A stretch of DNA of 47,950 nt, from positions 1 to 47,950 of IMG/VR virus record IMGVR_UViG_3300005617_000161. One strand, given 5' to 3'. This DNA comes from a virus. Below the pieces are notes generated by a model. The model had not been told where the DNA came from and searched no databases. It saw only the letters and a program-made list of their open reading frames with translations. Shown in pieces: positions 1,380-24,583 of this stretch. The position numbers were made by a program, and so were the translations under genes. Each line of letters begins with the position of its first letter. Position 1 is the first letter of the stretch.

Positions 1380-4300
1380 ATGCACGGAGTCACTGAAGGC
1401 GCACCTGTACCACTGAATTCGTATGGGGGATTGGTTACCCTAGCCGATCCCTCATCGATTCCTGAAGGTGCGTCTCCGAGAACCTACAACACGGATTTCA
1501 ATGTGGGCGCGGTGATGACTCGCCCAGGGCTCCGAAAAGTCTTCAACGCATCGAATGCCTCGATAGGTCCAAACCGCCCAACTGTAGCGCTATCCCCTAA
1601 TTGGATCAATCCTCTCAACATCCTTCTAGGCGATGGGGTATATACGCAGTCTGTCGCCAATGGAACCAATGCGTTGACGATTGAGAATTTCACCTTCTCG
1701 ATCCCATTCGGCGACATTCCCACGGGCGTGCTTATTCCCTTGGTTGGCTATGCGACCGCGGGAAGCGTAAGTATTGTCGGGCAATTGCTCAAAAACGGCG
1801 TTCTGGTGGGAGAGCGACGCGCTGTCACAATGCCGACAGTTTCAGGAGGCTTCTCTCTTGGCGGCGTGAATGACACCTGGGGAACATTTCTGTCTGCCGC
1901 AGACATCAACAACCACCTTTGGGGCGTACAGCTCACCGCTACATCTACCCTGTTCCCAGGAGCAACGGCGTTTCTCGATAGTGCGCAAGCAACGATTGGA
2001 ATCACCACAGGCGGGTCTAACTTCCAATACATCGGCACATTCACACAGCAGGATGACACGATCAAGAACATTGCCCTCGATGCTGCCGGGAATTTGTTTG
2101 TTGAGGACGTAACGAACAATCCCGGAGTGCTTACAGAGATCCGCACCGACATCACGCCTAACTCTGCTTCCGTGCAAGTGAATGGGCCGGACGTGCAGTT
2201 CATGGCATTCTCTGACTATCAGACGGGATCCGACATGCCTCTGCAGTATGGGTCAGATGGATCAATTTCAAGGATTACAAAGGTCGGCCCCGGTGCTCCT
2301 CCAGCCTTCACTCCACAGATTGCCAGCTCCGTAAATTTCGACATTGCAACCATCACGCAATATGCTGCGAAATCGAACATCCTGAATCCGGGGCATATTT
2401 CTGTGCTCTTGTGGTCTGCAGGTCCGGGCTCGACGCAGCCGGGAAACGTCATCACGGTTTACTACTCTCCCTCGTTTTATTCAGGCGCACCACAACCTGG
2501 GGCTGAAGATAAAACCCTCGTCAATACATTCAATTCAGGCGTTCCAACCTACGTGTTTCTCGATGGCATGCCGTTTGGAGATGGGACGTATCTCGTTACC
2601 TCAGTCGGCAATGCGTTGCCTCCCGGTGTTGACCACTTCCGCTACTATTTCACCGTCCAGACAACAACGAGCAATTATCAGAAGCAAAACGAAGCCGCGG
2701 GCACCTATCAGCAGACCATCGGAACGATGACGATGGTTGATCCAGTCCCCGGCCTGGAAGCAGGGAATGTCGTCACTGTTGCAGGAGCTTCGGTAGCGGA
2801 TTGGGATACAGCTTGGCCTATTGTAAGCACCGTCAACTCGGCAGAGATGACGATTACCAACACTGCCGTGACCGCATCGGTTGCAACGTACAACTATGCG
2901 GTAATTGGGGCAGGTAGTCCTCCCGCCGCAGGAGAATTGGTCACCGTTACAGGCACGACAAATGCCAATGGGCAACTCAATGTCACGAACGCAGTGATTC
3001 AGACCTCCACGGGAGGAGGGACAGGATCGTTTACCCTGAGCGTTCCGGTAGTCACTGCTGCATCCTCGCCTGAATCCGGCCAAGCTACGACAGCAGGCAC
3101 GATATTCACGATCGACCCGGGTCCGGTAGAAGCAGGAACTGTGACCAGCCCGATCTTTGGCAATTCCACGGGCGGAACCTTGACCTTTACCGCCGCCGAT
3201 GCGCAACTGATTGGTGTCGGAACGAGGCAGGGTTCCGTATTTTTCATCTATCCGAACGGCTACTACACATTTCCCGCGCCGCCAGTGACTTTTACCTGCC
3301 CCGAAAATACAACGGGCATCGTGGCGACGAACATCCCGATTGGCCCTCCTGGCGTAATTGGGAGAGGGGTCATTGTCACCGAAGCGGGGCAGAATGGAGT
3401 ACCGGGAGCCAACTTCTTTACTATTCCAACGCCAGTCGATTACATCGTCAACAATCAGACCTACACCGCATCGTCTCTTCTGATTCAGGACAACACTTCA
3501 ACGTCCGCATCGTTCACGTTCACAGATTCAGTGCTCCTAAATGCGCTCGCTGTCGATGTGTATGGGTATAACCTCTTCAATCAGATTGAAATCGGCGATC
3601 CTGGCTGGCTTGTCTCGTACAACTCTCGTATGTGGTATGGGCTTTGCCGGAACAAGGTGCAGAACTTCAATAACCTGAGTTTCGATGGCGGATACCTGCC
3701 CGCGCAGCAGCAAGGGCAGCTAGTTCCTTTGGGTTGGTCAACCCCGGATCAAAATGGGGGCTTGGTAGTCTCGCCGAGATCCGGCAATGCCTATTACATC
3801 AGCAACTCGACCGGCTCAACGTTGTCCGTTGCAGGGTTGATTTCACAGTCCGCTTATCAGGATGCCTACAAGCAGCCGATCATTTTGCCGAACACGCTTT
3901 ACTCGGTGCGGGTAACAGCGCGCATTCCTTCGGCGAGTCTCGCGGGGAACCTGGTTATCACGCTCACAGCCAATGGAATTACCTATGGGACATACACTCT
4001 TCCGTTTACAGGAATGTCCACGGATTACGGGATCTATAGCGGAACACTGCTGACCACTGCGTTTACAACGGTCCCGACAGGATTAACGCTGAATGTCTCG
4101 GCGACAACGGTGGGCAATGGCGCCGACGTAGAGATCGATCGCATCGAGCCTTACCCGACAGCTATTCCGGTTCTTCTCAATACCATCTACGGCTCTTACG
4201 CTGGATTGTCGGAGCAGGTTGACGCGGTAACCGGGCAAGTGCAGACATCGAACGAGAATCAGCAGCCCTGCAACGGAGCGGTGGTTATGTATGACACGCT

Positions 4301-5384
4301 CTATCTTCTAAAGGGCTCGATTGAAGGCACGAGCATGTATTCGCTTCAATCTTCTGCGAATCTTGAGCCTGCACAGTGGGATGAGCCGGAAGTTGCGCAG
4401 AAATCCGGGTCCATCGGAATCCTTGCTTACGACTTCGGTGAGCAGTGGATTGTGATGGCGAACCGGAACGGGCTTTATTTGTTTGAGGGTGGCCAGCCGG
4501 GAAAGATCACGCAGGAAATCTATCAGATCTGGGACTCAATCTACTGGCCCTCTGCTAACAAGATTTGGGTCAAGAACGATGTGATTCACCGGAAGCTGTA
4601 TGTTGGCATTCCTCTGCCGACGCCGAATTTCTGGATGCCGAACGCTCCGGTAAATCAGGCTCCAGTCAGCCCCAACGTCATCCTAATGTTGAACTATCAA
4701 GGCCTCGATTCAGGGGAAACTCTGAAGTTTGGGGCGCAGATGCACACCACGATGTTCGGCGCCCTGAACTCGACAGACGAGCGCAGAAAATGGTCTTTGT
4801 GGGACATCGCTTCGCCCTACGCAAACATCGTCACAGATGCTCTGCCCATGCTGATCACAAGGCGAATCGGACATATCACCTACACGTTCATCGGTCCCGG
4901 TCCGATTGATGAAGGCCTATACATCTGCAATGGCTCGGGAACTTCTACCGTCTATTACCTCGACAGCACAAGCGAAACCGATGACGGAGTAGCGATTGAT
5001 TCTCTCTACACCACTGCAGGGCTAGTAGAGGCTACAAAGAAGCAGACCGTGCCGATCTTCGGACCGGGGTATGCGAGATGGTCGTACATGACCGTGCAGC
5101 TCCAGTCTTCGGGCAACGTGCAGTGCAGGCTTCTGCCGAACATCCTGATCGGACCTGACGACGATGCCACGAACTACAACGCATGGACCGTTCCCGGTGG
5201 TTTCTCTCCCGGAAATCCTGCTTTGTACGACTGCGAAATGGCGCTGAATTTCTATGCGATGAGAACGTTCTGGGAGTTCCGCGAAAATGACGGCCACGGC
5301 TTCTCGCTCTCGAACTTCGTCGGATATGGCAAGCAGGATACTTGGAATCGACGCCGCGGAATTAAGGCAGGTGTATTGGCATGA
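1380..5384 (+). CDS. Very large virion/tail protein
   Basis: 1334 residues; starts immediately after the previous stop. The N-terminus has the pattern DPSSIPEGASPRTYN followed by TRPGLRK, which resembles the N-termini of large podovirus tail or head-completion proteins. The middle (about residues 450-600) carries Ig-like beta modules with VTVTGT and NGQLNVTN strands; the C-terminal third is mixed, with aromatic-rich segments. No signal peptide or membrane span. It overlaps the next gene by ATGA. I infer a tail hub or side-plate protein; no enzymatic motif was recognised. Confidence 0.7.
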   Translation: MHGVTEGAPVPLNSYGGLVTLADPSSIPEGASPRTYNTDFNVGAVMTRPGLRKVFNASNASIGPNRPTVALSPNWINPLNILLGDGVYTQSVANGTNALTIENFTFSIPFGDIPTGVLIPLVGYATAGSVSIVGQLLKNGVLVGERRAVTMPTVSGGFSLGGVNDTWGTFLSAADINNHLWGVQLTATSTLFPGATAFLDSAQATIGITTGGSNFQYIGTFTQQDDTIKNIALDAAGNLFVEDVTNNPGVLTEIRTDITPNSASVQVNGPDVQFMAFSDYQTGSDMPLQYGSDGSISRITKVGPGAPPAFTPQIASSVNFDIATITQYAAKSNILNPGHISVLLWSAGPGSTQPGNVITVYYSPSFYSGAPQPGAEDKTLVNTFNSGVPTYVFLDGMPFGDGTYLVTSVGNALPPGVDHFRYYFTVQTTTSNYQKQNEAAGTYQQTIGTMTMVDPVPGLEAGNVVTVAGASVADWDTAWPIVSTVNSAEMTITNTAVTASVATYNYAVIGAGSPPAAGELVTVTGTTNANGQLNVTNAVIQTSTGGGTGSFTLSVPVVTAASSPESGQATTAGTIFTIDPGPVEAGTVTSPIFGNSTGGTLTFTAADAQLIGVGTRQGSVFFIYPNGYYTFPAPPVTFTCPENTTGIVATNIPIGPPGVIGRGVIVTEAGQNGVPGANFFTIPTPVDYIVNNQTYTASSLLIQDNTSTSASFTFTDSVLLNALAVDVYGYNLFNQIEIGDPGWLVSYNSRMWYGLCRNKVQNFNNLSFDGGYLPAQQQGQLVPLGWSTPDQNGGLVVSPRSGNAYYISNSTGSTLSVAGLISQSAYQDAYKQPIILPNTLYSVRVTARIPSASLAGNLVITLTANGITYGTYTLPFTGMSTDYGIYSGTLLTTAFTTVPTGLTLNVSATTVGNGADVEIDRIEPYPTAIPVLLNTIYGSYAGLSEQVDAVTGQVQTSNENQQPCNGAVVMYDTLYLLKGSIEGTSMYSLQSSANLEPAQWDEPEVAQKSGSIGILAYDFGEQWIVMANRNGLYLFEGGQPGKITQEIYQIWDSIYWPSANKIWVKNDVIHRKLYVGIPLPTPNFWMPNAPVNQAPVSPNVILMLNYQGLDSGETLKFGAQMHTTMFGALNSTDERRKWSLWDIASPYANIVTDALPMLITRRIGHITYTFIGPGPIDEGLYICNGSGTSTVYYLDSTSETDDGVAIDSLYTTAGLVEATKKQTVPIFGPGYARWSYMTVQLQSSGNVQCRLLPNILIGPDDDATNYNAWTVPGGFSPGNPALYDCEMALNFYAMRTFWEFRENDGHGFSLSNFVGYGKQDTWNRRRGIKAGVLA

Positions 5385-6887: not shown

Positions 6888-8254
6888 TGGGCGTTTGGGC
6901 AGATGTACGAAAACCGCTAGCTCCCGATGAACCGCCTCCCGAGATGCCTTCGGTATGGGCAGTGCCGGACTCTCAGCCTGTGCCAATGTCGTCTCCGGTT
7001 GCCAATGTGCGCGGTCCCAGGATGCAGCTATCGACAAACACAGCGCAACAGGGTGACCTTGCAAAGATTGCCGCACGCGACACGCTGACGAACGACATTG
7101 ACCGCCTGAACGATACGCGGTGGAAGCAGGCGCATCCGTGGGGCTCGGCTGATAACCACCCCGGCAAGCTCGGCAAGATCGCTCACGCCTTTTCTGTGCT
7201 TGGAAACGTAGCCGGAAACATCGTTGCGCCGAACGTGATGGCAAATATCCCCGGCACACAGCTCAACATGCAGGAGAAGGAACAGGGGCTCGCCAAGAAG
7301 CTCGATACAGACGTGCAGCACCAGTCTGAGGACGAACTACATGGAGCGCAATCCCGAAATCTGACCGCCGAAGCCGCGAGAACCGAAGCGGAGCAGCCCT
7401 ATGTTGCCCCAAGCGCGGAAGCCAAGAACCGCCTTGAAAATGCACAGGCCACCGAATTGGAAAACACAGCCGCAGCGGGGCCAAACCTTGCAACCGGCTA
7501 TGCTCATGCCGTAAATGACGCTATGAAGCGCGGCGTTGATCCCGCACAAGATCCCATTGTGCAGCATATTGCAGATGCAATTACGAGCATCCAGAAGCAG
7601 CCTGCTCCGAAAGATGAACAGACCAAAACTGCCACATATATTCCACCGGGCGGCACGAAGCCAATGGAATTCCAGTGGGACCCGAAAACCAACAAGTACG
7701 ACATTCCGCTTGGCGAGCACTATGAGCGCCCCATCACTGTGAATAACAATCCAGAGCGCAAAGAGCGTGGCGAAATACTCAAGATTTACCAGCCTGCCCT
7801 TGATTCTGGCGAGCGCTTCAACGTGATGAACGAGAGCTTCCTGAAAGCCGTCAAGGATCACGACCAGCAGGCTATGCTCAACCTTCTCGCCAACCATCTC
7901 GGCATGACGATGGGGCTCCAGAAAGGCGCTCGACTCACGAAGGACATCGTTCAGGAAGCCCAACACTCATTGCCGTTCCTTCAGGGAATCAAGGCAAAAT
8001 TCGGCCCGGATGGATATGCAACTGGCGTCAATCTCAGCCCTGAACAGATGCGCCAAATGGTTGATCTAGGACGCTCCCGATTCTCAGAGGATGCCGTAAA
8101 AGCTCGCAGTGCGGGGCGGTATCTCGGGGATACCGGAGATGGTCCAGACCGTATTCCCAATGAGGCAACGATCAAGTATTACAAGTTCCTTGCCAACGGT
8201 GACGGAGCCAAAGCAAAGGCGCTCGCAGCGCAAGACGGATGGAGCGTTAAGTAA
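6887..8254 (+). CDS. Helical virion protein, candidate internal (ejection) protein
   Basis: 455 residues; starts on the last base of the previous stop (TAATG). Pro-rich N-terminus, a moderately hydrophobic segment near residues 95-130 (IAHAFSVLGNVAGNIVAPNV) and then long charged helices (RNLTAEAARTEAEQPY). No catalytic motif. With its neighbours it forms a three-gene block between the tail-completion genes and the fibres, the usual place for DNA-ejection proteins in podoviruses. An alternative is a tail needle or chaperone protein. Confidence 0.55.
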   Translation: MGVWADVRKPLAPDEPPPEMPSVWAVPDSQPVPMSSPVANVRGPRMQLSTNTAQQGDLAKIAARDTLTNDIDRLNDTRWKQAHPWGSADNHPGKLGKIAHAFSVLGNVAGNIVAPNVMANIPGTQLNMQEKEQGLAKKLDTDVQHQSEDELHGAQSRNLTAEAARTEAEQPYVAPSAEAKNRLENAQATELENTAAAGPNLATGYAHAVNDAMKRGVDPAQDPIVQHIADAITSIQKQPAPKDEQTKTATYIPPGGTKPMEFQWDPKTNKYDIPLGEHYERPITVNNNPERKERGEILKIYQPALDSGERFNVMNESFLKAVKDHDQQAMLNLLANHLGMTMGLQKGARLTKDIVQEAQHSLPFLQGIKAKFGPDGYATGVNLSPEQMRQMVDLGRSRFSEDAVKARSAGRYLGDTGDGPDRIPNEATIKYYKFLANGDGAKAKALAAQDGWSVK

Positions 8255-9555
8255 TGCCTGATAAAGATCCGTGGGCAGATGATCCGAGCATAAAGAAAGC
8301 GGAACCCGCCAAGGGAGAGCCTGCGCCGTCTGGCGACGACGATTACAAGCTTTTTGGCGCTAGCGGCTCTAGCGGAGGCGGTGATTCGTCAGGGTCCATA
8401 TTTGCGGGAACTACTCAACTGCATAAGGCCATCGATAAGGCCGCAGAAAGCGAGCCAGTAACCGGGCTTGGTTCTGTCGTGCGAAATCTCGGCGCAGGAG
8501 CAGTACGCGCAATACCGCAGGCGCTAGCACATCTCCCGAGCACTATTGGCGGCATGGCGAAAATGGTCACGCAAGATCCGAGCGGTGCAGTCGGATTTGG
8601 CTTGGACCTGCTGAAACCAGAAGAGGGCAAATCAGGCGGCGAAGCAATCGCCAACATCCCTCCAACCATTATGGGATTTGCCGGAGGGGGCGAAGCAGCT
8701 AGCTCTGAGGGCGGCATGGCTCGCATCCCGTCTCTTGAGCTCGGTGAGCGGTTTGGGGGTTATAAATCTCCAGTTATCCCTGCTCCGCTACAGGCGGCAA
8801 GCAAAGCGGCAGAAGCTATCAGGCCCCCGGGCGGCATCCTGCCCGATTTCGAGCAGAACCTAGCGAAGAATCTGCCTAAGATCAAAGCATTTGCCTCTGA
8901 GAACGGCAATCCGCTTCATTCTCAGTGGGAAACCGCCGAAGCTGCTCGATCTCTCGCAAATAAAGGTCTCGACCACTTCAAAAGCAACTTTCTTTCTCCA
9001 GTTGAGCGTGAACCAATTTCAATGCGCTCGGTTCCTGAATACCAAGGACCGGTATCTGGCGAAGGCCGCATGACTACTCTGGGCCAGATCGAGAAGCGCA
9101 TTTCGGATATTAACGATATGCAGCGGGCAGCGACAAAGAACGCAAAAACCACAGGCGCTCAAATGTCCGCAGAACAGGCGTTGGGACTCGAAAACGAAGC
9201 TGGAAAACTGCGCGACATCCTCTATCGCGAAATCGGGAAGCGCACAGGCGTGGACCCGGAAGTTATCAGGGATTTGCGCCAGAGCTACGGTCAGCAATTC
9301 AACATTGCAGACACGATCGATGCTGCTCGCAGAGCACGGCTTGGACAGACCGGAGCATCCGCAGAGATGGGCGGTTCAGTGCCATTCAGTAAGACAGGGC
9401 TCCTAGAGAAAGCCATGCAGGGAATACGCGGCGGGCAGGATTACATCGCCAACGCTAGACTGCGCAAGGCCTTGCAGGCATTTGAACCGGAAAAGGTTGA
9501 ATATCCATTGGCGAAGACTATCGGAAATGCAGGTGGTCGCGCACCTCGGCAATAA
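8254..9555 (+). CDS. Virion protein, candidate internal (ejection) protein
   Basis: 433 residues; TAATG coupling with the previous gene. The N-terminal 60 residues are acidic and Gly/Ser-rich; residues about 65-150 hold amphipathic, moderately hydrophobic stretches (VRNLGAGAVRAIPQALAHLP; IMGFAGGGEAASS); the rest is a charged helical region with coiled-coil character (GRMTTLGQIEKRISDINDMQ). Membrane-active helices followed by coiled coil fit a protein ejected with the DNA. The last 38 bases are overlapped by a minus-strand small gene. Confidence 0.55.
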   Translation: MPDKDPWADDPSIKKAEPAKGEPAPSGDDDYKLFGASGSSGGGDSSGSIFAGTTQLHKAIDKAAESEPVTGLGSVVRNLGAGAVRAIPQALAHLPSTIGGMAKMVTQDPSGAVGFGLDLLKPEEGKSGGEAIANIPPTIMGFAGGGEAASSEGGMARIPSLELGERFGGYKSPVIPAPLQAASKAAEAIRPPGGILPDFEQNLAKNLPKIKAFASENGNPLHSQWETAEAARSLANKGLDHFKSNFLSPVEREPISMRSVPEYQGPVSGEGRMTTLGQIEKRISDINDMQRAATKNAKTTGAQMSAEQALGLENEAGKLRDILYREIGKRTGVDPEVIRDLRQSYGQQFNIADTIDAARRARLGQTGASAEMGGSVPFSKTGLLEKAMQGIRGGQDYIANARLRKALQAFEPEKVEYPLAKTIGNAGGRAPRQ

Positions 9556-10370: not shown

Positions 10371-10949
10371 GTGGCACTCGCACGCGATGACAGGTGGTTA
10401 GCGGATGCCCAGGGACGGGCTTTGGCAGGAGCGCAGGTCTACTACTGCTCTCAGCCTGCCACAGTGCCTGCAGATGCCCCTCCGTCTCCATTGCTGACGG
10501 TTTACGGAGACATTGATGGCACGACGGCAGCAACGCAGCCGCTCATCACTGACGGCTTTGGGCATTGCGATGCCTACGTGACCACCGGAGTCCTTTTTAC
10601 GGTCGCCATGTATCACCCGCTCTTCGGAGAGTTCCCTGTCGTTCTCCCAGATCAGCAGGTAGGCGGTGGAGGTGGTGGAGGCTCAGTAGTCACTCCATTT
10701 GCCGGGGTGCCTGATGGAGTGATCGATGGCGTAAACACCACATTCATTCTTCGCAACGGCCTGACTCCGCTTACCGCTGTTCCGACGCAGATGGAGGCGT
10801 GGCTGAACTACTCGCAGATTCCAAATGTGGGCTATTCGGTCGGACTTCTGGGAGGCTTCGCGACGATCGTTTACTCCACCCCTCCACAACCAGGAACCGA
10901 CTCCGCACCCGCAGACGTGATTTACGCACAGGGCCTGACCATCGTTTAG
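10371..10949 (+). CDS. Tail protein with poly-Gly hinge
   Basis: 192 residues, GTG start one base after the previous stop. N-terminal domain (about 1-95) ends in VVLPDQQ and is joined by a run of Gly residues to a C-terminal beta domain (about 105-192). The first domain reads like a small beta module (GRALAGAQVYYC) seen at the base of phage fibres. Two short domains on a flexible glycine hinge, directly upstream of the giant fibre, fit a fibre adaptor. Confidence 0.6.
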   Translation: MALARDDRWLADAQGRALAGAQVYYCSQPATVPADAPPSPLLTVYGDIDGTTAATQPLITDGFGHCDAYVTTGVLFTVAMYHPLFGEFPVVLPDQQVGGGGGGGSVVTPFAGVPDGVIDGVNTTFILRNGLTPLTAVPTQMEAWLNYSQIPNVGYSVGLLGGFATIVYSTPPQPGTDSAPADVIYAQGLTIV

Positions 10950-10954
10950 GAGAG

Positions 10955-13900
10955 ATGAGATTGAAAAAGACACTTGCACTACTTTTATTCGCATCTCCCC
11001 TGCTTGGGCAGAGCCCCGTCAACCCAACCACGCAGATCCAGTGGGGCAGGCTGACCGGCACAGGCTCTCCGGCCTCGAATGGCTACGTGTGTACGACCAA
11101 CACGACTGGCGATGCTACCCATGCGGTGCAGGGCACGATGTACACCGATGTGGCAGGGCCGCACTACTGGACCTGCGGGAAGCCTGGTGGGGTGGCAACG
11201 TGGTATCAGGTTGATCAGGCCGGCCTCTCGACCATCATTCAGGTCAACGGCGATCCTACGGTTCCTACAAGCCCTGTCGATCTCAACGATACGACTCCTG
11301 CAGCAGACGCGGGGTACATCAATGCCAAGGTAAGAAAGACAGGAGCATCTGTAAGCTTTGAGGTTCCTAGTTCTCTTGCTACTGCTCTGAGAATGCAGCC
11401 GGGCGAAGACGAGACTCACGTCTTTGTTCCCTTTACTGTTTGCGCATTGACTACCGATAACGGAAGTCTCTTGGCTGCTGGATCATCTTGCAATGAAGCG
11501 CTCGGCGGCCAAATGTCCACCTATGCAGGAGGGCTGTTCAACCACAACATCAACGCGCACCTTACATTCAGCGTTCCGGTTCTTCCTTCATGGCTTCCTG
11601 CTGGGAATGTTACGGGCGTGCAGGTGCAGGGCTATGCAAATGGATATGGAGGAGGGGATTCGAGCGGATGCGGAGGTTCTGGGATTTCCTGCGGTAGCTG
11701 GGCTGTGCAGACAACCCAAGGGCCGAATACGGTCAATGTCACTGGAGTCACAGGGGCAACCATCGGCACTATGACTGCTGTAGCGAATCTTTCGCAGTCC
11801 GTATACTGCACCGGATGTCCGAGCGCTTTTTCGATCATCTCTGCCGATAACATCACGCAAGTCGGGCTCCTCGTGGCGTTCTCAGGTGTAACCAATCCGA
11901 ACTTTCCAGCCAACACCGTCAATCTACTGGACCCGCTAACCTACGACCCTGCCGCAAATGCAATTGGGGTAAGACCTACTTATCCGCAAAAGCTCCAGTC
12001 GGTTCTCACGGCCAATCTTCCCACAACCGCCCCGGTGTTCTCGATGGCGATTACCAACGACAACACCCAGACAGTTGCAGGTCAGCCCTGCACCGGAAGC
12101 GGGTCCATTTCCACTGACTACGCGTGGTGCATTTCCAACGATGGGAAGTGGGTTTATGCAGGAGAGATGTTTAGCGGTGGCGGGGGTGGAACGGTCACAT
12201 CCGTTGGAACCGGAGCAGGGCTGACAGGTGGGCCAATTACGCACTCTGGCACGGCTTCCATCGACTTCTCCCGCGTCAATACATGGACAGGCAAACAAAC
12301 ACAACCAGCACCAGTTCTCTCTGATCTAGCAGGGGGCGGCACGCAGTGCCTGCAGACGGACAATTCCGGGCAGGTATCAGGAACTGGCGCGGCGTGCGGT
12401 TCGGGCGGGGGTGGGACAATTGGCGGCTCCGGCACAGCAAATTGGTACGCGCTCTGGACCGCCTCAACCACTCTTGGCAATGGGAACCTGGATGACGGGG
12501 TTACGACAGCATCAACAATCACTGCGCATGAGCCCGTACAGATCACTGACGGAACAGGCAAGGCTGGTGCGGTAGCAATCGCGCAGGGCACTGCTGCCTC
12601 AAACAGCACCACTGCGGTAACTCTGACCGCTCCGACTTCCGTAACATCGTATCGCGTTCAACTTCCCGGATCTCAGCCTCCCGACTCATCGCATGAAGTT
12701 CTGACCTGCACGAATGCAGATCCTGCAGTGTGTTCATGGGGAACAGGAGGCGGCACTGGAACGGTTACGACTACAGGCACCCCCGCTTCAGGCAATCTCA
12801 CCAAGTTCTCTGGCGCATCCTCAATCACCAATGGGGATCTGACAGGCGACGTAACGACGTCCGGCACGCTGGCAACGACTCTCGCCAGCACCGCAGTGAC
12901 GCCAGGAAGCTACACCAATACCAACCTGACAGTGGATGCCAAGGGACGCATTACGGCGGCCGCAAATGGCTCAGGTGGTAGCGGCGGGCAACCGCATTCG
13001 TGCTCAGTCTCTGTAGGCAATCAGCTTTGCATCACTGACACGACGTACAACGCATCGGGACAAGGTGGAACCACCACAACCGTCTCTGGAACGTGGACGG
13101 CTGGAACTTCGGGAACGGTAGGATCGTGCTCTACATTCAGCGCCAATCAGGGTGTCTATATTGCGGGCGCTGGCGCTGCGGGCGCGGCCTATATCGGCAC
13201 GATTGTTTCCTGCTCCAGCACGACGATGACGGTCACGCCAGCAACAAGCACGACGGTCTCCTCAAGCAACGTTGTACAGCATGACGACACCGCAGCATTT
13301 CAGGCAGCCATTACCTACTTCGGGACGAACACCACAGGCGGCTCGATCCTAGTGAACGATGGACTCTACCTCATCAACGGTCCATTGCAGGATACGAGTC
13401 ATGCCGAAGGCAACGCGAAGCTCTTGCTGCCTTCGATTGAATACGGGTTAAGTTCCCCGCAGCCAATCAGCATCACCATCACTGGCTTCACGGTCCCAAC
13501 GCAGACTGGCGTCAACCAAGGCGCAATTCTTAAGACTTCTGGAACATCTGGCAATCTGATCGGTGGCTATTACACAGGAGGCGGCAGTCCGCCCTTCGGC
13601 GTTTTCACGAATGTCTATCTCGACCTTGAAAAGCTCACGCTCCGCTCGTATACCAATCCGACGATCCAACTCTGGAACGCGGGATACACGGCTGGAGCAC
13701 GCTGGAACCATCTCTGGATGGATGCAGGCGCAACGATCTCAACCCCCGGAAGCGGAACGACTGTTGCCTTCACGATGCCGTACAAGCTCAATAGTTCGTT
13801 TGTTGAGGGTTCTGACCTAACCATCATCGGGTACGGCACGGGCTTCATCGCAGGCGAGCACGCCTCGATTCATTCAGTGAGAGGCGCTAACAATTTCAAC

Positions 13901-15460
13901 TGCTTCAAGTTCGATTCTGGCGCGAATGGACTCGGCGGCGGTGATCCAAACTCAATTCAGGTAGATGAGCTATGGGCGCAGGGCTGCGTGAATGAAATCG
14001 TTGGCCCCTCATCTGGTTCTATTCCTACAACGGTCAACATCCAGAACGCTGACATCGAATCCTATATAACCAACGGCATCAGCGATCCCAACAACCTTCT
14101 TTACGGAACGATCAATTACCTCAACACCTCTGCTCCTACCACTGCAATTGCTCTGAGTGGCGGAGCCAACGTTTGTGTTAACAACCTGCGCGCGCCAAAC
14201 CAGAGTCTCCACTGTCCGGGCGGGGCAGCGCAGGCAAGTTCATTTACGACCGTGCCAAGTGCTCCGTGGGCAATCTCTAACGTTCAGTCTGCGGGGACGG
14301 CTGCGAATATCGGTTCCGAAAGCGGCACGACGGCGTGGACTTTTATGAGTTGCAGTACTGCGGGGGATTGCGGCCTGATCCATGACACCACCCGCGATTT
14401 CACTCTCGCCACCTCTACCGCTACCAGCGGAACGGGATATACGGCGTGGTTCAAGCGCGACCACACTACAGGTGCTTTGCAGTGGACATTCTTCGCAGGC
14501 ACAGGTTCCAGATGTCTGCATACCGACGCAAGCGGAAACGTAACCCCATCGGCTGCGGATTGCAATTCTGGAGGCACCGCAAACGCTCTGACCATGAACA
14601 ATGGCGGCGCTGGAGCTGCGAGCGGATCGACGTTCGATGGCTCAGTCGCGAAGACGATCTCTTACAACACAATCGGGGCAGCGCCAGCCGCATCTCCGAC
14701 ATTCACAGGAACGGTAACGACTCCAATCACCGGATCAACGCAGTGTCTTCAGGTGAATTCATCTGGAGTGCTTTCAGGGTCTGGAGGAGTTTGCGGAGGT
14801 GGTGGGTCAGCATTGCCACTGACGTTCGTGCAGAGCTTGATGTGGAATTCCGCCAACTCCAACGTTACTAGCCAAGCCGTAACCTTCCCGAAGACTTCAG
14901 CGGCGAGCGGGAACACGCTTTGGATGATCGTCTCGACGGATGGCTCTGCGACAGTTACCGCGCCTTCGGGATGGACCGTAGACCTTAACCAAACGCAGGC
15001 ATCCTTCGCTCGCATTATGGTTCTGCATAAGGCGGCGGCGTCCGATACCTCAGCAACCTTCACGACCGCTTCAGGAACGAGCTATTCGGGGTGGTTCTTT
15101 GAAGTCACTGGCAGCCATGCGATCGACGCATCGTCCTGCTCTGGAACAACGAACACCGCTACTCTCTCATTCCCGGCCATCACGCCGACAGCGGCATCTA
15201 TGCTGTTCGCTTTTGAGGGGTTCGCTGCCAACGGAACAGCGCAGTGGCCCGTATTCTGGCCTGCTCCGGTGGATCCATTCTGGGTTCCGGTATTTCAGGG
15301 AAATCTAAGCCTGAATAGCGGGAGAGCTCTGATAGGTACGTATGGAACTCAGGCGGGGGTTCACTCTAGTACAACTCCGCCGAGCATAAGGATAGACACC
15401 ACCAACATCACGCAGTTCTCAGGCAGCGGTATCGCTTACTGCTCCTTCTCGATCCTATGA
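10955..15460 (+). CDS. Giant tail fibre with N-terminal signal-like peptide
   Basis: 1501 residues. ATG at 10955 is chosen for its ribosome site (aggaga, close to the ATG) and because the protein then begins with a signal-peptide-like segment (RLKKTLALLLFASPLLGQ). The body is typical phage fibre: GLTGGPITHSGTASIDF, then GDVTTSGTLATTLA and NTNLTVDAKGRITAAANG, a repeat common in tail fibres. A pectate-lyase-like beta-helix entry follows (HDDTAAFQAAITYFG, about residue 780), then more fibre repeats. The C-terminal 200 residues form a separate beta domain probably binding the host surface. The export signal is odd for a cytoplasmically assembled virion part. Confidence 0.85.
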   Translation: MRLKKTLALLLFASPLLGQSPVNPTTQIQWGRLTGTGSPASNGYVCTTNTTGDATHAVQGTMYTDVAGPHYWTCGKPGGVATWYQVDQAGLSTIIQVNGDPTVPTSPVDLNDTTPAADAGYINAKVRKTGASVSFEVPSSLATALRMQPGEDETHVFVPFTVCALTTDNGSLLAAGSSCNEALGGQMSTYAGGLFNHNINAHLTFSVPVLPSWLPAGNVTGVQVQGYANGYGGGDSSGCGGSGISCGSWAVQTTQGPNTVNVTGVTGATIGTMTAVANLSQSVYCTGCPSAFSIISADNITQVGLLVAFSGVTNPNFPANTVNLLDPLTYDPAANAIGVRPTYPQKLQSVLTANLPTTAPVFSMAITNDNTQTVAGQPCTGSGSISTDYAWCISNDGKWVYAGEMFSGGGGGTVTSVGTGAGLTGGPITHSGTASIDFSRVNTWTGKQTQPAPVLSDLAGGGTQCLQTDNSGQVSGTGAACGSGGGGTIGGSGTANWYALWTASTTLGNGNLDDGVTTASTITAHEPVQITDGTGKAGAVAIAQGTAASNSTTAVTLTAPTSVTSYRVQLPGSQPPDSSHEVLTCTNADPAVCSWGTGGGTGTVTTTGTPASGNLTKFSGASSITNGDLTGDVTTSGTLATTLASTAVTPGSYTNTNLTVDAKGRITAAANGSGGSGGQPHSCSVSVGNQLCITDTTYNASGQGGTTTTVSGTWTAGTSGTVGSCSTFSANQGVYIAGAGAAGAAYIGTIVSCSSTTMTVTPATSTTVSSSNVVQHDDTAAFQAAITYFGTNTTGGSILVNDGLYLINGPLQDTSHAEGNAKLLLPSIEYGLSSPQPISITITGFTVPTQTGVNQGAILKTSGTSGNLIGGYYTGGGSPPFGVFTNVYLDLEKLTLRSYTNPTIQLWNAGYTAGARWNHLWMDAGATISTPGSGTTVAFTMPYKLNSSFVEGSDLTIIGYGTGFIAGEHASIHSVRGANNFNCFKFDSGANGLGGGDPNSIQVDELWAQGCVNEIVGPSSGSIPTTVNIQNADIESYITNGISDPNNLLYGTINYLNTSAPTTAIALSGGANVCVNNLRAPNQSLHCPGGAAQASSFTTVPSAPWAISNVQSAGTAANIGSESGTTAWTFMSCSTAGDCGLIHDTTRDFTLATSTATSGTGYTAWFKRDHTTGALQWTFFAGTGSRCLHTDASGNVTPSAADCNSGGTANALTMNNGGAGAASGSTFDGSVAKTISYNTIGAAPAASPTFTGTVTTPITGSTQCLQVNSSGVLSGSGGVCGGGGSALPLTFVQSLMWNSANSNVTSQAVTFPKTSAASGNTLWMIVSTDGSATVTAPSGWTVDLNQTQASFARIMVLHKAAASDTSATFTTASGTSYSGWFFEVTGSHAIDASSCSGTTNTATLSFPAITPTAASMLFAFEGFAANGTAQWPVFWPAPVDPFWVPVFQGNLSLNSGRALIGTYGTQAGVHSSTTPPSIRIDTTNITQFSGSGIAYCSFSIL

Positions 15461-15633
15461 AACATTCGCCACAAGAACGGAGGTTTGCCAGAACAGTCTT
15501 TCTCGTGATTGCTCCATCTGCCTGCCTGCCAATAGGCGGCCCTTCGGGTGGGCACTGTATCGAGCTTCTTGCGACATACAGAGCAGATAACTGCCACGCC
15601 AAGGTTAACGGGTCTCAGTACCACGCTTTGCAT
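15436..15633 (-). CDS. Minus-strand small zinc-finger-like protein
   Basis: 65 residues, ATG at 15633 behind a strong ribosome site (aggtgggggca). It contains CSVC and, 28 residues on, H-x4-C (HEKDC), a plausible zinc-binding set, in a basic, aromatic-rich context. It overlaps the 3' end of the fibre gene by 25 bases on the opposite strand and follows another minus-strand gene (15605-15775) whose end it overlaps. The good ribosome site and ordinary codons favour a real gene. Function unknown; a small regulator is possible. Confidence 0.5.
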   Translation of the reverse strand: MQSVVLRPVNLGVAVICSVCRKKLDTVPTRRAAYWQAGRWSNHEKDCSGKPPFLWRMFHRIEKEQ

Positions 15634-15775
15634 TGCCCCCACCTTTCTCAATCCACTTTTCACCCCAACAGATAAAGGAAACAGCACCAGCTATGATGAC
15701 TGCCGACGCAACCAGAATCCACGGAAGCAAGAGGGCTGCTTGTCTGCGCACTTCCGGGTTGGGCGGCTCCAGCAT
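15605..15775 (-). CDS. Minus-strand single-span membrane protein
   Basis: 56 residues from ATG 15775 (an in-frame ATG at 15784 is an alternative). Short N-terminus (LEPPNPEVRRQA), one transmembrane span (LLLPWILVASAVIIAGAVSF), a Cys, then a basic tail (EKWIEKGGGNAKRGTETR). A gga lies about 8 bases before the start. It overlaps the start region of the plus-strand spike gene and is the first of a two-gene minus-strand unit between the two host-recognition genes. Possible roles are superinfection exclusion or an antiholin; both are speculative. Confidence 0.5.
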   Translation of the reverse strand: MLEPPNPEVRRQAALLLPWILVASAVIIAGAVSFICWGEKWIEKGGGNAKRGTETR

Positions 15776-18700
15776 CCTCGCCATCCTAGCATTCTGCCTG
15801 CTGGCCCCTCTACAACTTTTGGGGCAGGCATGGAGCCCTTTTCTCGATTCAAGCCGTGCGATCGACTGGAGCGGGGCAGGCTTCACCATCCCAAGCTATA
15901 CGGTGAACTGCGCGACTCAGCCGACTTTGACTAGCGGTTCTGGGGCAGCAGGGAGCAACGCCACGGCGATTCAAAACGCCCTTGCTTCGTGCGATGCAAC
16001 GCATAACGTGGTCAAGATTCCGGCAGGAACCTTCTATGTCGCAGGAATCACCTTCCCCTCGCATGGCAAGCAGGTATTGCGGGGAGCAGGCCCGACTCAA
16101 ACCAAGCTCATCTCCACAGGTCAGGCTGGTTGCGAGGGCTATCAGGGCGGCATCTGCATGATCGATGGATCTCCGAACTACTCAGGAGATGCGGCGGTGC
16201 AGTACAACACAGGCTCCCAGACTTGCCGACTTGCCACGTTGACCAAGGGTGCAACAACCCTTTCCCTGACCAACTGCAATTCCGCTCCTCCCTTGAATCG
16301 CCTCATGATCCTTGACCAAATCGTCGACCAGGCGGATACCGGAGGCGTGTATGCCTGCAACGAGACAACCCCGGCAAGCTGCAACTACGACGGTACGGGC
16401 GGGAGCTACGGGCGGCCCACTAGAAACCAGACGCAGACGGTCTATACGACTGGCGTCACCTCTCTTGGGGGAGGGAACTACACCGTCACCATCGCCGCTC
16501 CGGGGATTGTCTTTACCAACCTTCAGTCAGGCAGGAATCCGGGAGTATGGTGGGCTGGCGGTACGGCAACTCTCGACGGACTTGAGAACCTGACCATCGA
16601 TGGAACTTCCGACTCTCAGTACACCGTCAATATGTTCGACTGCTACCAGTGCTGGGTTAAGAATGTCACGTTCCTCAATGGTGGGCGGGGAAGCATCGCA
16701 GCACTTCAATCCGGGTATGTAGTGATTCGTGATTCCTACTTCTATCAGGCGCAGTCTTCAGGAACCTCGGTCAGCTACAACATTGAAACCCAGTTGAGTT
16801 CATCGGGACTGGTAGAAAACAATCTCATCCAACAGACCGTCCTCCCCTACGTCATCAACAACGGAACGGGGTGGGTGTTCGACTACAACTTTGCGGTGAA
16901 TGAGAAGAGTTTTGCTTCAGGGTTTCTGGGAGCGGCATTCGCCTCTCACGGCGCGGGGAACCAGTTCAATCTCCATGAGGGAAACGCGGTCAAGGGGTAT
17001 CAGGCCGATGATGCATGGGGATCGACTACGCAGCAGACCTTCTTCCGAAACTTCCTGACCGGATGGGATGTGGGGAGAAATCAGGCGACGACTCCATTTA
17101 TCAATCGTAGCTACGTCCGGGCTATGAACGTTGTCGGGAATGTCTTGGGTCAGCCTTCCTATAGCACCCAATATCAGGCGGTGGGAACCAGCGCAACCGC
17201 ATCTTCTGGACTGGCTGCACAGGATACGTCTATCTATCTCCTGGGAATCGCCGGGAATCCCAACCCTCCCAAGTTCAACGCCGCGGGATGCGGAACAGGC
17301 ACGGCGCAATCCAGCCCTTCCTGCGATGCTCTGGCGAATTCCACTCTGATGCGGTGGGCGAACTGGGATGCTGTTGGTGGGGTGACGAAGTTTGATTCGA
17401 CCGAGGCTAGCCCGGGGGCGGTCACCTACGTCAACGCGAACTTCTCCTCAAGCTATTTCACATCCCTAGCGCACACTCTTCCCGCGTCCCTCTACTACTC
17501 CTCCACCCCATCATGGTGGCCTGCGGGCAAGCCCTTCCCGCCGATTGGGTTCGATGTCAACTCGTCCAACCTGAAGCTCTGCTCTGGCGGATCAATGAGT
17601 GGGGCAGCGGTTACGACGATCACAGAATGCCCTGGAGGATCGCTAGTTACTGCGTGGGGAGGACATGCCAATTCCCTCCCGATGCAGGATTGCGCGAGCG
17701 CACTTGGGATGCCTGCCGATGGAACAGGGCCTGCGCTGGCGTATGACTACAACGCAGGAGGCTGCCCCGGATCTTCAACGCCTACCGTACCTGCGCCGTC
17801 CTTCGCTCCAGGCACAGGAACTTACTCAACCCCGCAGTCAGTAACAATCTCAGATTCTCTGGCAGTGGCGGATGTGCAAATCACCACACAAGAAGGATCG
17901 AACGCAAACGCATCGAACGGGGACACGCCTAGCAGAAACCTCTATACCAACTGTGCAACGACCTGCTCAAGCGGAACTCCGTCTCCTTCTCCGGCAGGGC
18001 AGAGATGGTGCAACTCGAGTCAGGTAGTCTCCTGCGGTTCGTTCGGCTCTTCTGTCGTCGCGTCGACGATCACCGGCACCGGAACGCATTCGCTCGATAA
18101 CGGACGCGGAGCAGGCGGGGACGACTCTGCTACACAGCTGACGTCGACATATGGCGGCTCAACAACTAATCCGTGCGCGTCTCAATGGGGGCAGCCTACC
18201 GGATTCCCTGGACTGACTCTTCCCGCTGCGCAAGCCAATTCCGCGGCGTTCTACTCGATCACCACGCAGTCTTCCAACGTCAATACCTCTCTATTGTCGC
18301 CGACCAAGAACACCATGAATACGGCGCTGAGCGATGCGATTGACCACTACCTGACCGTCAGTTGCATGGACATCAACAACACCACGGCTTCAGGCGTGCA
18401 TGCGGAGTTTGATACCAACCACACCATCGCGACGGATGACTATTTCGGCTTCGGCAAGCACTTCAACTTCGCAACATCGAAGTTCTATTTCTGCCCTCAA
18501 GGCTGCTCTGGCTGGAAAGAGATGGACCTGAAGGAAGCCAACGGAACTATGCACACGACGTTCTCATGGCCTGCCAACCACAAGATCTTCATGTACACGA
18601 TTGACCACAGAGATCCCGGCTGTACTTCGAGCTCGGGTTCTAACTGCATGTGGTATGACGGGGCCTGCTTCCAGGATGTGACTGCAGGTTCAGCGCAGAT

Positions 18701-19604
18701 CTGCGGCAACTGGATTGACCCGGTTACTGGCATAGCTCCCGGAGGAATTCCGGTTCACAAGTCTGGTTTCACGATCAACGAAATCAACACCCAGACGCAG
18801 ATAGATATCAATGCAGCAAGCGTGACCATCGCCCAGAATGTCTGGCGAAGCTTCGTTGGCTATAACCTGAACGGCGTCTCGATCTTCTACACGAACAACG
18901 GCTCTGTCCCGACCACCAGCAGTACGCCGTATGTCGCGCCGATTTCCGTTGCAACCTCGCAGACGCTCAAGGCACTTGCAACGGCACCAGGCTACGCCAA
19001 CTCTCCGGTAAACACGGCGAATTACACCATTACGGCCGGCACAAACTACACCCTGACCATCACCGCGCCAAACGCAACGGTGTCAGGCACAAACAACACG
19101 TCAGGAACCTACACGTCAGGGACCACGCTCGGCGCATACACAATCACTCCCGCGGCTGGATACACGATCACATCGATTACAGGCACAGGTTCTACGGCAG
19201 GCTGCACGAGTTCCCCCTGCGGCTCCTACACTATCGGGGCGAACTCCTCGATTACAGTGACCACGGTTCAACAGACGGTTGCCACGCCAACATTCTCACC
19301 GGGAGCGGGTACCTATGTTGGCACGCAGACGGTAACGATCTCTGATGGCACATCGGGATCAACCATCTGCTACACCACGGACGGAAGCACCCCGACAGCG
19401 AATGGCGCAGGAGCGTGTACGCACGGCACAACCTATTCGACGCCAGTCAGCGTAGCGACAAGCGAAACGCTCAAGGCGATCGGCTCGAAAGCGGCATTCC
19501 TCGATTCCGCGGTTGGCTCTGCAGCCTACGTTATCAACTCCTCCACGGTCCACGTAACACTTTCAGGCACTCAATCCTTCTCAGGGAGCGTAAAGGTCCA
19601 ATGA
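15693..19604 (+). CDS. Secreted-type beta-helix tail spike/adhesin with chitobiase-like C-terminal domains
   Basis: 1303 residues from ATG 15693 (15696 also possible). Residues about 12-45 form a signal peptide: basic start (GSKRAACLRTSG), hydrophobic core (ILAILAFCLLAPLQLLGQA). Then a right-handed beta-helix of pectate-lyase type (NAIQNALASCDATHN, KIPAGTFYVAGITFP) to about residue 560. A distinct Cys-containing domain follows (TSKFYFCPQGCSGWK). The C-terminus holds chitobiase/hexosaminidase-type Ig-like domains (FSPGAGTYVGTQTVTISDG, CYTTDGSTPT), known from polysaccharide-active enzymes. Likely binds or depolymerises host surface glycan. No catalytic residues can be assigned. Confidence 0.75.
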   Translation: MMTADATRIHGSKRAACLRTSGLGGSSILAILAFCLLAPLQLLGQAWSPFLDSSRAIDWSGAGFTIPSYTVNCATQPTLTSGSGAAGSNATAIQNALASCDATHNVVKIPAGTFYVAGITFPSHGKQVLRGAGPTQTKLISTGQAGCEGYQGGICMIDGSPNYSGDAAVQYNTGSQTCRLATLTKGATTLSLTNCNSAPPLNRLMILDQIVDQADTGGVYACNETTPASCNYDGTGGSYGRPTRNQTQTVYTTGVTSLGGGNYTVTIAAPGIVFTNLQSGRNPGVWWAGGTATLDGLENLTIDGTSDSQYTVNMFDCYQCWVKNVTFLNGGRGSIAALQSGYVVIRDSYFYQAQSSGTSVSYNIETQLSSSGLVENNLIQQTVLPYVINNGTGWVFDYNFAVNEKSFASGFLGAAFASHGAGNQFNLHEGNAVKGYQADDAWGSTTQQTFFRNFLTGWDVGRNQATTPFINRSYVRAMNVVGNVLGQPSYSTQYQAVGTSATASSGLAAQDTSIYLLGIAGNPNPPKFNAAGCGTGTAQSSPSCDALANSTLMRWANWDAVGGVTKFDSTEASPGAVTYVNANFSSSYFTSLAHTLPASLYYSSTPSWWPAGKPFPPIGFDVNSSNLKLCSGGSMSGAAVTTITECPGGSLVTAWGGHANSLPMQDCASALGMPADGTGPALAYDYNAGGCPGSSTPTVPAPSFAPGTGTYSTPQSVTISDSLAVADVQITTQEGSNANASNGDTPSRNLYTNCATTCSSGTPSPSPAGQRWCNSSQVVSCGSFGSSVVASTITGTGTHSLDNGRGAGGDDSATQLTSTYGGSTTNPCASQWGQPTGFPGLTLPAAQANSAAFYSITTQSSNVNTSLLSPTKNTMNTALSDAIDHYLTVSCMDINNTTASGVHAEFDTNHTIATDDYFGFGKHFNFATSKFYFCPQGCSGWKEMDLKEANGTMHTTFSWPANHKIFMYTIDHRDPGCTSSSGSNCMWYDGACFQDVTAGSAQICGNWIDPVTGIAPGGIPVHKSGFTINEINTQTQIDINAASVTIAQNVWRSFVGYNLNGVSIFYTNNGSVPTTSSTPYVAPISVATSQTLKALATAPGYANSPVNTANYTITAGTNYTLTITAPNATVSGTNNTSGTYTSGTTLGAYTITPAAGYTITSITGTGSTAGCTSSPCGSYTIGANSSITVTTVQQTVATPTFSPGAGTYVGTQTVTISDGTSGSTICYTTDGSTPTANGAGACTHGTTYSTPVSVATSETLKAIGSKAAFLDSAVGSAAYVINSSTVHVTLSGTQSFSGSVKVQ

Positions 19605-19909
19605 AACGAAGAAAATTCATCGCATCAGCAATGGGAGTGGGGCTTGTCACGGCAGCGTCTAGCCAAGAGGCCGTTACCAGCAGCATAACCACTCAGGGGC
19701 TTACGTTTACAACGAGCACTCCTCTATCGCCAGAAGAGCGCAAGCGCCAGTACGCAATCTGCAAAGAGCGGGGTCACGTTCAAGACCTTGAAGCGGGCGG
19801 GATCGTGCTCACTAGTTACCCTGCCATCTATCCCAAGCCTGTCTGCAAGTTTTGCGGCACTCGGTTCTGGACCGAAGAGGTCAGCCACGAAGAAGGAGCA
19901 CCACAATGA
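19601..19909 (+). CDS. Small exported protein with twin-arginine-like signal and Cys pair
   Basis: 102 residues, ATG overlapping the spike stop (ATGA). The N-terminus KRRKFIASAMGVGLVTAASS resembles a Tat signal (RRKFI). The mature part has a charged helix (PEERKRQYAICKERGHVQD) and a CKFCG pair with an upstream Cys, so a metal site is possible. It is translationally coupled to a spike on one side and another signal-peptide protein on the other. It may be a lysogenic-conversion product or a spike partner. Confidence 0.6.
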   Translation: MKRRKFIASAMGVGLVTAASSQEAVTSSITTQGLTFTTSTPLSPEERKRQYAICKERGHVQDLEAGGIVLTSYPAIYPKPVCKFCGTRFWTEEVSHEEGAPQ

Positions 19910-20280
19910 AAAAGCGCATCATTCAGGGCATCGGCTTTGCCATCCTCGGCCTCAGCGTCGGCTTTGCCTTCGGGCAATCAGGCCACACCGTCACCCTCAC
20001 CGTAGCTTCGCCAGACACGTCGAGCAGTGCGCCCGGTACAGCAACGATCCTTCGCGCAGCAGGGGCCTGCCCTGCGTCCGGCGTGCCTGCAAGCGGCACC
20101 ACGCTTACCTCTAGCCTGAGCGTGCCTGGAACGGCGAATTACAGCGATACGTCAGTGACAGGCGGGAGCACCTATTGCTACTGGTCGCTGCTCAAGACGG
20201 CAGGAGGTGGTAGCGGCGTCTCGAACACCTTTCAAGGGGCAATTACCGTCGTCGTTACCTTGTCAGGGACTACCCAGTAA
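19906..20280 (+). CDS. Small exported beta-sandwich protein
   Basis: 124 residues, ATGA overlap with the previous gene and a good ribosome site (gaaggagcaccaca). Signal peptide KKRIIQGIGFAILGLSVGFA ending at FGQ, then an Ig-like beta domain (HTVTLTVASPDTS, CYWSLLKTAGGG, VVVTLSGT) with two Cys that could form a disulfide. The short domain resembles isolated fibre-tip or adhesin modules. Last of four consecutive genes with export signals. Confidence 0.65.
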   Translation: MKKRIIQGIGFAILGLSVGFAFGQSGHTVTLTVASPDTSSSAPGTATILRAAGACPASGVPASGTTLTSSLSVPGTANYSDTSVTGGSTYCYWSLLKTAGGGSGVSNTFQGAITVVVTLSGTTQ

Positions 20281-20932: not shown

Positions 20933-21107
20933 GACCAACGAAATGACGCGCCCACTCCCGGCAGGGGTCACGGATCCAGATGCCGTGCTCACTGAGAGAA
21001 CCGTTCACTTGGTTAAGACAGGCCAAATGAGGCCGACTCCCAACGCCATCTATGCCCTGTGTCGGGACTGGGAATTAGCCTACGGGCCTCAACGCGATGA
21101 CCTCTAA
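20925..21107 (+). CDS. Small hypothetical protein in the lysis operon
   Basis: 60 residues, soluble, one Cys. It overlaps the proline-rich peptide upstream by 8 bases and the endolysin start by 11. Sequence (TERTVHLVKTGQMRPTPNAI, ALCRDWELAYG) shows no recognised domain. Tight packing between lysis genes is the only functional hint. Confidence 0.55.
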   Translation: MPETNEMTRPLPAGVTDPDAVLTERTVHLVKTGQMRPTPNAIYALCRDWELAYGPQRDDL

Positions 21108-21591
21108 GCAGAAGGCATTTCTTGACCTGATCGCATGGTCTGAAGGGACCAGCACCAACCGCCTCACCAAGCAAGGAGGCTACGATGTTGTGGTCACCGG
21201 ACCTCAAGGACCTGAAGTCTTCACCGACTTTTCAGATCATCCTTTCGCACAGGGGAGACCAGCAAAGCTCATACGACCTGCACATGACGGAGTGGCAGCA
21301 CTGTATTCCACTGCCTCGGGTCGCTATCAGCTACTTCTCCGGTACTGGCGGGCATACCAGGGCATGCTACATCTACCTGACTTCAGCCCAGCGTCTCAAG
21401 ATGCCGTGGCCCTCCGACAAATCCACGAACAAGGGGCAGACGGAGCCATAGAGTCAGGCGACGTAGAAGACGCCATCTTTAAGTGCGCAAATATCTGGGC
21501 CTCGCTACCGGGGAACACCTACGGACAGCACGCGCACACGATCCAGGCACTACTCGATAAGCATTCAGAACTCAGCACGGAGGCAGCATGA
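21097..21591 (+). CDS. R: Endolysin, lambda R-type lytic transglycosylase
   Basis: 164 residues, close to the 158 of lambda R, collinear along its length. It cleaves the MurNAc-GlcNAc bond of peptidoglycan. Catalytic Glu16 lies in AWSEGT, and the family blocks FTDFSDHP, GRYQLLLRYW, DFSPASQDAVAL and NIWASLPGNTYGQ are all present. No signal peptide, so release should need a holin. The start overlaps the previous gene by 11 bases and the end overlaps the next by ATGA. This is the best-supported enzyme of the lysis region. Confidence 0.93.
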   Translation: MTSKQKAFLDLIAWSEGTSTNRLTKQGGYDVVVTGPQGPEVFTDFSDHPFAQGRPAKLIRPAHDGVAALYSTASGRYQLLLRYWRAYQGMLHLPDFSPASQDAVALRQIHEQGADGAIESGDVEDAIFKCANIWASLPGNTYGQHAHTIQALLDKHSELSTEAA

Positions 21592-21872
21592 ACCCTGTTC
21601 TAGACAGCGCACTCAAAAACTGGAAATCAACTGTGCAGTCCGTCCTCACCGTGACGCTGTTTACCACGGCAACCCTACTCACCCTGCCGTCTGTGCAGGC
21701 CTATCCGCGGCTGATTACTGGCCTGAGTGTCGCCCAGGTGCTTGCAAAGCTCTGGATCGGGCTCATCTCGCACGATGCCAAGCCCTCGTCTACGTCCTCG
21801 GTGACGATTGAAAGCACGTCTCCGATCGAAGTTCCACCTATTGAAGTCACACAAGCAAAGGAGAAACCATGA
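21588..21872 (+). CDS. Small membrane protein, holin candidate
   Basis: 94 residues, ATGA overlap with the endolysin. Two hydrophobic stretches (VLTVTLFTTATLLTLPSV and ITGLSVAQVLAKLWIGLI) separated by a short polar turn, then a polar Ser/Thr/Pro-rich tail. Two spans, short length and coupling to the endolysin fit a class II holin, though sequence families were not recognised. Confidence 0.6.
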   Translation: MNPVLDSALKNWKSTVQSVLTVTLFTTATLLTLPSVQAYPRLITGLSVAQVLAKLWIGLISHDAKPSSTSSVTIESTSPIEVPPIEVTQAKEKP

Positions 21873-24457: not shown

Positions 24458-24583
24458 TGGGAATCTAATTTGTAATAAATTGCGATTCATCGTTACTTTC
24501 CTCCTTGCCAACAGGGTCTTTCGTACCGTTACCGTCATTCCCCATAAGTGCCATTACATCGGTGCAATCCGAGGAGTAGAACT
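24458..24583. other. AT-rich integrase leader, candidate attP region
   Basis: The stretch between the leftward promoter and the integrase start holds no gene. It is AT-rich to about 24500 (aatctaatttgtaataaatt) with short dyads, and it ends in the integrase ribosome site gaggag at 24571-24576. Its place beside the integrase makes it the best candidate for the attachment site, but no core sequence or tRNA fragment can be recognised. Confidence 0.3.

Follow-up and report, generated by a model that had tools for sequence, protein, structure and literature searches.

Composition of the locus

The analyzed window, the whole stretch of 47,950 bp, is one complete IMG/VR virus record (IMGVR_UViG_3300005617_000161) and represents a temperate tailed phage. 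The four consecutive genes on the plus strand between positions 10955 and 20280 that were described in the initial annotation were confirmed and are here named A to D. The features of the window referred to in this study were as follows (a slash marks a predicted cleavage site):

1380..5384, plus strand: 1334-aa phage protein, probably structural, with 53% identity to a protein in an integrated Acidobacteriota prophage
8254..9555, plus strand: 433-aa Cys-free protein with 28% identity to Tunturi 1/2 ORF37/38, part of a conserved order ahead of the cluster
10371..10949, plus strand: non-exported neighbour of gene A and candidate connector; in relatives, exported fibres have a first mature domain similar to the N-terminal domain of this protein
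10955..15460, plus strand: gene A, 1501-aa fibre with the Sec signal peptide MRLKKTLALLLFASPLLG/QSP and 30 Cys in the mature part
15693..19604 (ATG 15693), plus strand: gene B, 1303-aa spike with a signal peptide, a right-handed beta-helix (mature 1 to about 590), CHB_HEX_C_1 and Fn3_assoc domains and the C-terminal tag SGTQSFSGSVKVQ
15774..15824, plus strand: hydrophobic core and c-region of the B signal peptide, with predicted cleavage before Gln45
19563..19601, plus strand: C-terminal tag of B, shared with three unrelated exported phage spikes
19601..19909, plus strand: gene C, 102-aa Tat-like exported protein, MKRRKFIASAMGVGLVTAASS/QEA, with three Cys and one His
19906..20280, plus strand: gene D, 124-aa exported small beta protein, MKKRIIQGIGFAILGLSVGFAFG/QSG, with two Cys
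21097-21591, plus strand: endolysin, directly downstream of the four-gene cluster and first of the lysis genes
24548-25648: integrase
36399-37916: terminase

Gene A begins 5 bp after the phage gene at 10371-10949, within a run leading to the lysis genes. Its start codon is either ATG 10955 or TTG 10961, the latter with the better AGGAG spacing. The genes B and C as well as C and D overlapped by 4 nt each (ATGA). Two overlapping ORFs on the minus strand, real or due to chance, were found between A and B (15436-15889), where they overlap the start of B; one encodes 83 aa, including a CxxC motif followed further on by HxxxC, and the other 94 aa with one membrane segment. A further 94-aa protein with a signal-peptide-like start (LPSVQA/YPR) is located in the lysis region (21588-21872) and is a possible lysis helper.

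Gene A had no match in Pfam and no significant match among the PHROGs; its residues 777-969 matched a faecal phage protein without a signal peptide, a partial relation. Scans of IMG/VR with C, the whole of A and Tunturi 2 ORF11 revealed no relatives, and phmmer searches of A, C and D against the proteins of the relatives gave no matches. The chitobiase-like domains noted earlier in B were identified correctly, since Pfam assigned PF13290 (E 1.6e-22) and PF13287 (E 8.5e-20). Protein C carries a Tat-like RR-x-F motif. It also has a weak zinc-finger match in Pfam, and its three Cys and one His possibly constitute a zinc site. The term Ig-like for D found no support in Pfam; the protein reads like one fn3-type domain. 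AlphaFold models calculated without alignments were too poor for use (pLDDT 34 for B and 41 for D).

The 1334-aa protein shared its 53% identity, over its length, with a protein of the Acidobacteriota genome G275. There the homologue belongs to a prophage with host genes behind it; a signal peptide is encoded by the fibre gene of this prophage and, as judged by eye, by the next gene as well. Together with a homolog of spike B in a genome of the same class, this indicates that the host of the window phage is almost certainly a member of the Acidobacteriota, in the class of Tunturiibacter.

Signal peptides

Each of the four proteins starts with a basic n-region and a hydrophobic core, followed by a small residue at -1 and then Gln. 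The predicted cleavage sites were LLG/Q for both A and B, ASS/Q for C and AFG/Q for D. In B a long charged n-region precedes SSILAILAFCLLAPLQLLG/QAW. Signal peptides were called with a home-made rule-based Sec test, which in its Q-weighted form gives a bonus for Gln at +1. Signal prediction had been proposed as a check in the initial annotation, and in the Q-weighted form of this test the signal-like N-terminus was recovered for all four proteins. Without the bonus A, B and D still passed; C failed, in agreement with a signal of the Tat and not the Sec type. The test had a false-positive rate of 0.4% (3 of 820 internal Met-started segments of soluble host proteins).

The Gln at +1, found in 4/4 window proteins, agrees with the Q-rule. 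In strain X5P2, the host of Tunturi 2, 14 of 38 signal peptides (SPI) exposed Gln as well when scored without the bonus. The host itself thus partly obeys a Q-rule like that of Bacteroidetes (PMC5837995).

Related clusters in phages and prophages

The same kind of cluster was present in the isolated phages Tunturi 1, 2 and 4, in integrated Acidobacteriota prophages (G275, G637 and G594, the last with five exported genes in a row) and in about 25 IMG/VR contigs, among them L011 and L012. It recurs in phages that differ in their wider gene order. Several relatives share, wholly or partly, an order of a large virion-type protein, in some cases an acetyltransferase, one or two Cys-free proteins and then the exported cluster (the window, G594, L084, L078 and L012).

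Among annotated phages the best matches of B were found in Tunturi 1 and 2, which are podoviruses of Tunturiibacter (PMC11924767). In Tunturi 2 the exported run is flanked by a tail gene and the endolysin, as in the window. Here signal peptides are present on ORF12, 13, 14, 16 and 17, whose annotations are fibre, pectin lyase, virion protein or hypothetical protein, and ORF15 within the run has a hydrophobic start that fails the Sec rule. The siphovirus Tunturi 4 encodes three exported proteins (ORF111, ORF113 and ORF114). The GenBank start of ORF111 (L009:30076-33171, tail fiber) is too late; from the true start, TTG at L009:30076, the protein begins with MNRISKAIGLCALALSVGSSYG/QTAAVK, nearly identical to the signal peptide of ORF113. 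By the same rule no signal peptides were found among the annotated fibre genes of Tunturi 3, a phage of the host strain of Tunturi 1 and 2. The export route is therefore optional and not obligatory.

Small helix-rich proteins of 88-113 aa recurred inside the clusters, most of them with a signal peptide and two late Cys (L194:10471-10776, L085:4672-4938, L081:3858-4157, L092:11626-11904 and L004:18005-18346). They are possible periplasmic helpers in fibre folding. One cluster also contains an exported 133-aa protein with a collagen-like GPPGPAGPQGKPGPAG stretch (L085:4274-4675). Two further contigs (L002:2160-2463 and L003:10210-13157) carry a relative of the window gene at 10371-10949 followed by a fibre gene whose product bears an export signal. 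Cys is scarce in L003, whose repeat style may point to a different host phylum.

Cysteine content and the shaft module

Cysteine made up 2.28% of A to D as compared to 0.43% of 13 other proteins of the window phage, taken as a structural set (permutation p 0.001). High Cys content as a simple mark of export was considered and rejected: exported proteins of X5P2 had a mean of 0.66% Cys and soluble ones 1.33%. Since the exported host proteins are Cys-poor, the high content is specific to these phage families and some of the host beta-helix families.

A shaft module, NVGxCGDATHVxQVTxDAKGRATxC, is common to ORF111 and ORF113 of Tunturi 4. Scanning IMG/VR with the Cys-containing module yielded 23 loci. 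A second scan, based on the proteobacterial phage version of this module, which is Cys-free and has Phe or Tyr in place of the first Cys, yielded 79 loci. Signal peptides were called by rule in 22/23 fibre genes with the Cys module, and in the remaining one (L081) by eye. Among the 64 Cys-free loci with a complete start a single one passed the rule (L095, probably false). This difference was highly significant (Fisher p 2e-18) and persisted after clustering at 50% identity (17/18 versus 1/25, p 7e-10). The median Cys content was 1.88% in the Cys-module fibres and 0.08% in the Cys-free homologues.

All 22 distinct modules contained exactly two Cys, the first one and one partner, the latter either 7 residues downstream (12 modules) or at about +20 (10 modules). 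Both partners were never present together, and neither was a module without any. The first Cys belonged to the search pattern and thus has no evidential value; the second was outside the pattern. Disulfides require an oxidising compartment. One Cys with two alternative partners has the look of a disulfide staple and therefore supports real export, the pairs being as expected of disulfides formed outside the cytoplasm. Fibre A of the window lacks the stapled module; the argument extends to it through its own content of Cys and the common architecture.

Spike B and host polysaccharide loci

The spike B was 66-67% identical to an exported beta-helix protein encoded in a polysaccharide locus of the Acidobacteriota genome G560, with the same cleavage site, and 30-40% identical to many further host proteins. 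Relatives of its mature beta-helix were found in 34 of 349 genomes of the class. With a signal peptide and homology over the full length of the mature beta-helix, B belongs to a family of exported host proteins. Gln45, located right after the predicted cleavage site, was invariant in all 15 aligned homologs, whereas the signal peptide varied freely. The residues D208, E429, D439 and R452, conserved throughout the family, are retained in B. The family has no Pfam name; its profile weakly resembles polygalacturonase 1bhe (E 0.003).

All ten host copies that were fetched lie within 20 kb of homologs of a flippase or a polymerase of locus L218 (Polysacc_synt_3 and Wzy_C in Pfam). Similarly, Tunturi 2 ORF14 shared 38% identity over its length with an exported protein of its own host X5P2, in a locus with Wzz, polysaccharide export, Wzy and glycosyltransferase genes. 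Tunturi 4 ORF114 and Tunturi 2 ORF17 have exported relatives in X5P2, the genes of which neighbour polysaccharide-type genes. Taken together, these comparisons give three spike families with host relatives in or near polysaccharide loci. The glycan contact previously proposed for the spike is thus supported.

Virion part or free protein

Some features favour the exported proteins being virion parts. The exported protein of L093 matched a tail-fibre PHROG (E 1.5e-14), and the module of Tunturi 4 ORF113 is also present in a tail fibre of Acinetobacter phage ME3. An N-terminal domain of exported fibres showed a modest similarity to the non-exported window gene at 10371-10949 (hhalign P 1.4e-4, 25% over 53 columns). 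When the exported N-terminal domains were compared by profile with a broader range of non-exported domains, the result was not convincing.

The C-terminal tag of B, with a pattern of roughly hydrophobic-SGxVx-hydrophobic-SGxAx-hydrophobic-Q, was also found in the spikes L078:6942-9059 (ISGNVKISGKATIQ), L085:1149-4277 (ISGSVSISGSAKIQ) and L194:12941-14848 (MSGSVSASGKVTLQ). A strict regular expression retrieved these three proteins only, and a looser similarity test added B of the window. The four spikes, which have no mutual BLAST matches, reached tag scores of 40-41, compared to at most 27 in 1470 background C-termini. Tunturi 2 ORF14 failed the looser test, and the tag was not found in the six host relatives inspected.

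Proposed role of the cluster and alternatives

Export of the cluster proteins is well supported. Their predicted signal peptides are of the kind used by the host, the mature parts are Cys-rich, with the Cys paired in relatives, and B is related to an exported beta-helix protein of the host. As a whole, we consider it somewhat probable that A to D form a module of exported host-recognition proteins of a temperate Acidobacteriota phage. Late in infection the four proteins would be made together with the tail proteins and would cross the inner membrane via Sec (A, B and D) or Tat (C). The signal peptide would be removed before Gln, which would then probably be cyclised, and the proteins would fold in the periplasm with disulfide staples. 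They would bind or cut the host exopolysaccharide. Their loading onto tails, as a last assembly step, would occur once the contents of periplasm and cytoplasm mingle at lysis. This loading, which we place slightly ahead of free enzymes, is the most likely fate of the proteins and also the least certain step of the proposal.

The proteins might instead be free exoenzymes, that is soluble or surface-bound polysaccharide-modifying enzymes and adhesins which are exported during infection, aid the escape or spread of the progeny and never join the virion. We regard this as rather unlikely. B, Tunturi 2 ORF14 and ORF17 and Tunturi 4 ORF114 are all related to host proteins of exopolysaccharide-type loci. 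In ORF114 the beta-helix directly follows the signal peptide, and the spike has no attachment domain; its occurrence in a siphovirus, with a relative in ORF17 of a podovirus, would be easy to explain if no docking to the virion is needed. Moreover, receptor binding in Tunturi 4 could fall to its cytoplasmic tail-tip candidates and not to the exported proteins. However, proteins of the gene A type consist of fibre shaft modules that are also found in annotated tail fibres and have no obvious enzymatic role, and the cluster occupies the usual position of receptor-binding genes. In addition, the tag on B and on three unrelated exported spikes is of a phage type and absent from the inspected host relatives.

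Lysogenic conversion, in which expression from the prophage would modify the surface of the lysogen (adhesion, exclusion of other phages), appears very unlikely. The window phage does have an integrase, the 232 bp ahead of B could hold a promoter, and P. gingivalis phages carry genes with Q-rule signal peptides that are thought to alter the host surface (PMC10367356). However, the short distance of A from a gene of the tail run, the position of B, C and D ahead of the lysis genes, and the presence of the same cluster at the same place in the plaque-forming isolates Tunturi 1 and 2 all argue against it. That the hydrophobic start is an uncleaved anchor or an assembly element of a protein that is not exported is the least probable reading: N-terminal membrane segments are used by some phage proteins, but here Gln45 is invariant behind a freely varying stretch, the Cys of the mature related fibres are paired and the host relatives resemble ordinary exported proteins.

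Hence, export and glycan contact remain from the initial interpretation, while export by lysogens and anchoring by the hydrophobic start were not supported. If these proteins are virion parts, the underlying premise of a cytoplasmic location of such parts up to lysis seems to fail for this phage group. Building on the module of exported host-recognition proteins, we tentatively suggest, as a possibility, that in Acidobacteriota phages the receptor-binding fibres are built extracytoplasmically, with Sec export, disulfide stapling in the periplasm and attachment to tails only at lysis, using the C-terminal tag and small exported helpers. If true, tailed phages would possess a second assembly line, one outside the cytoplasm.

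The existence of a phage group whose fibres are exported and stapled by disulfides would alter the way in which such genes are recognized and would open a route to very stable binding proteins. It would also mean that, for a phylum dominant in soil, the host range of phages is tied to the exopolysaccharide enzymes of the host. As Tunturi 1, 2 and 4 and their hosts are available as isolates, the idea is directly testable.

Comparison with known systems

The cytoplasm is regarded as the place where tail fibres fold and assemble. In a survey of DGR phages the diversified (DGR target) phage proteins were without signal peptides, and this absence was used to support a phage origin (PMC6199706). Exported tail fibres were not reported in the literature searched, with most subscription journals and preprints outside its coverage, and their novelty is provisional.

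The nearest case was that of the Porphyromonas gingivalis phages (PMC10367356), which together with the Q-rule of Bacteroidetes resemble the window in host-adapted signal peptides with Gln at +1. The function of the P. gingivalis phage genes is unknown, whereas here fibres and spikes in a conserved cluster are concerned, and in another phylum. Cleavable signal peptides on phage proteins are also present in Lom of lambda (PMC12309495) and, according to a title cited in PMC13274417, in RI of T4. These are outer-membrane and lysis-control proteins, unlike the fibres described here.

The beta-helix proteins of Acidobacteriota exopolysaccharide loci are the closest counterparts of B on the host side. 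B differs from them by its extra chitobiase-type domains, the C-terminal tag and its location in a phage. The tail fibres and tailspikes of the Caudoviricetes, as represented by tail-fibre PHROGs and pectate-lyase-like spikes, are similar to the cluster in genome position, shaft modules, beta-helix spike and presumed binding of host glycans. To these the cluster type of the window adds signal peptides, a high content of paired Cys and exported relatives in the host, while the Cys-free control fibres have neither signal peptides nor a high content of paired Cys.
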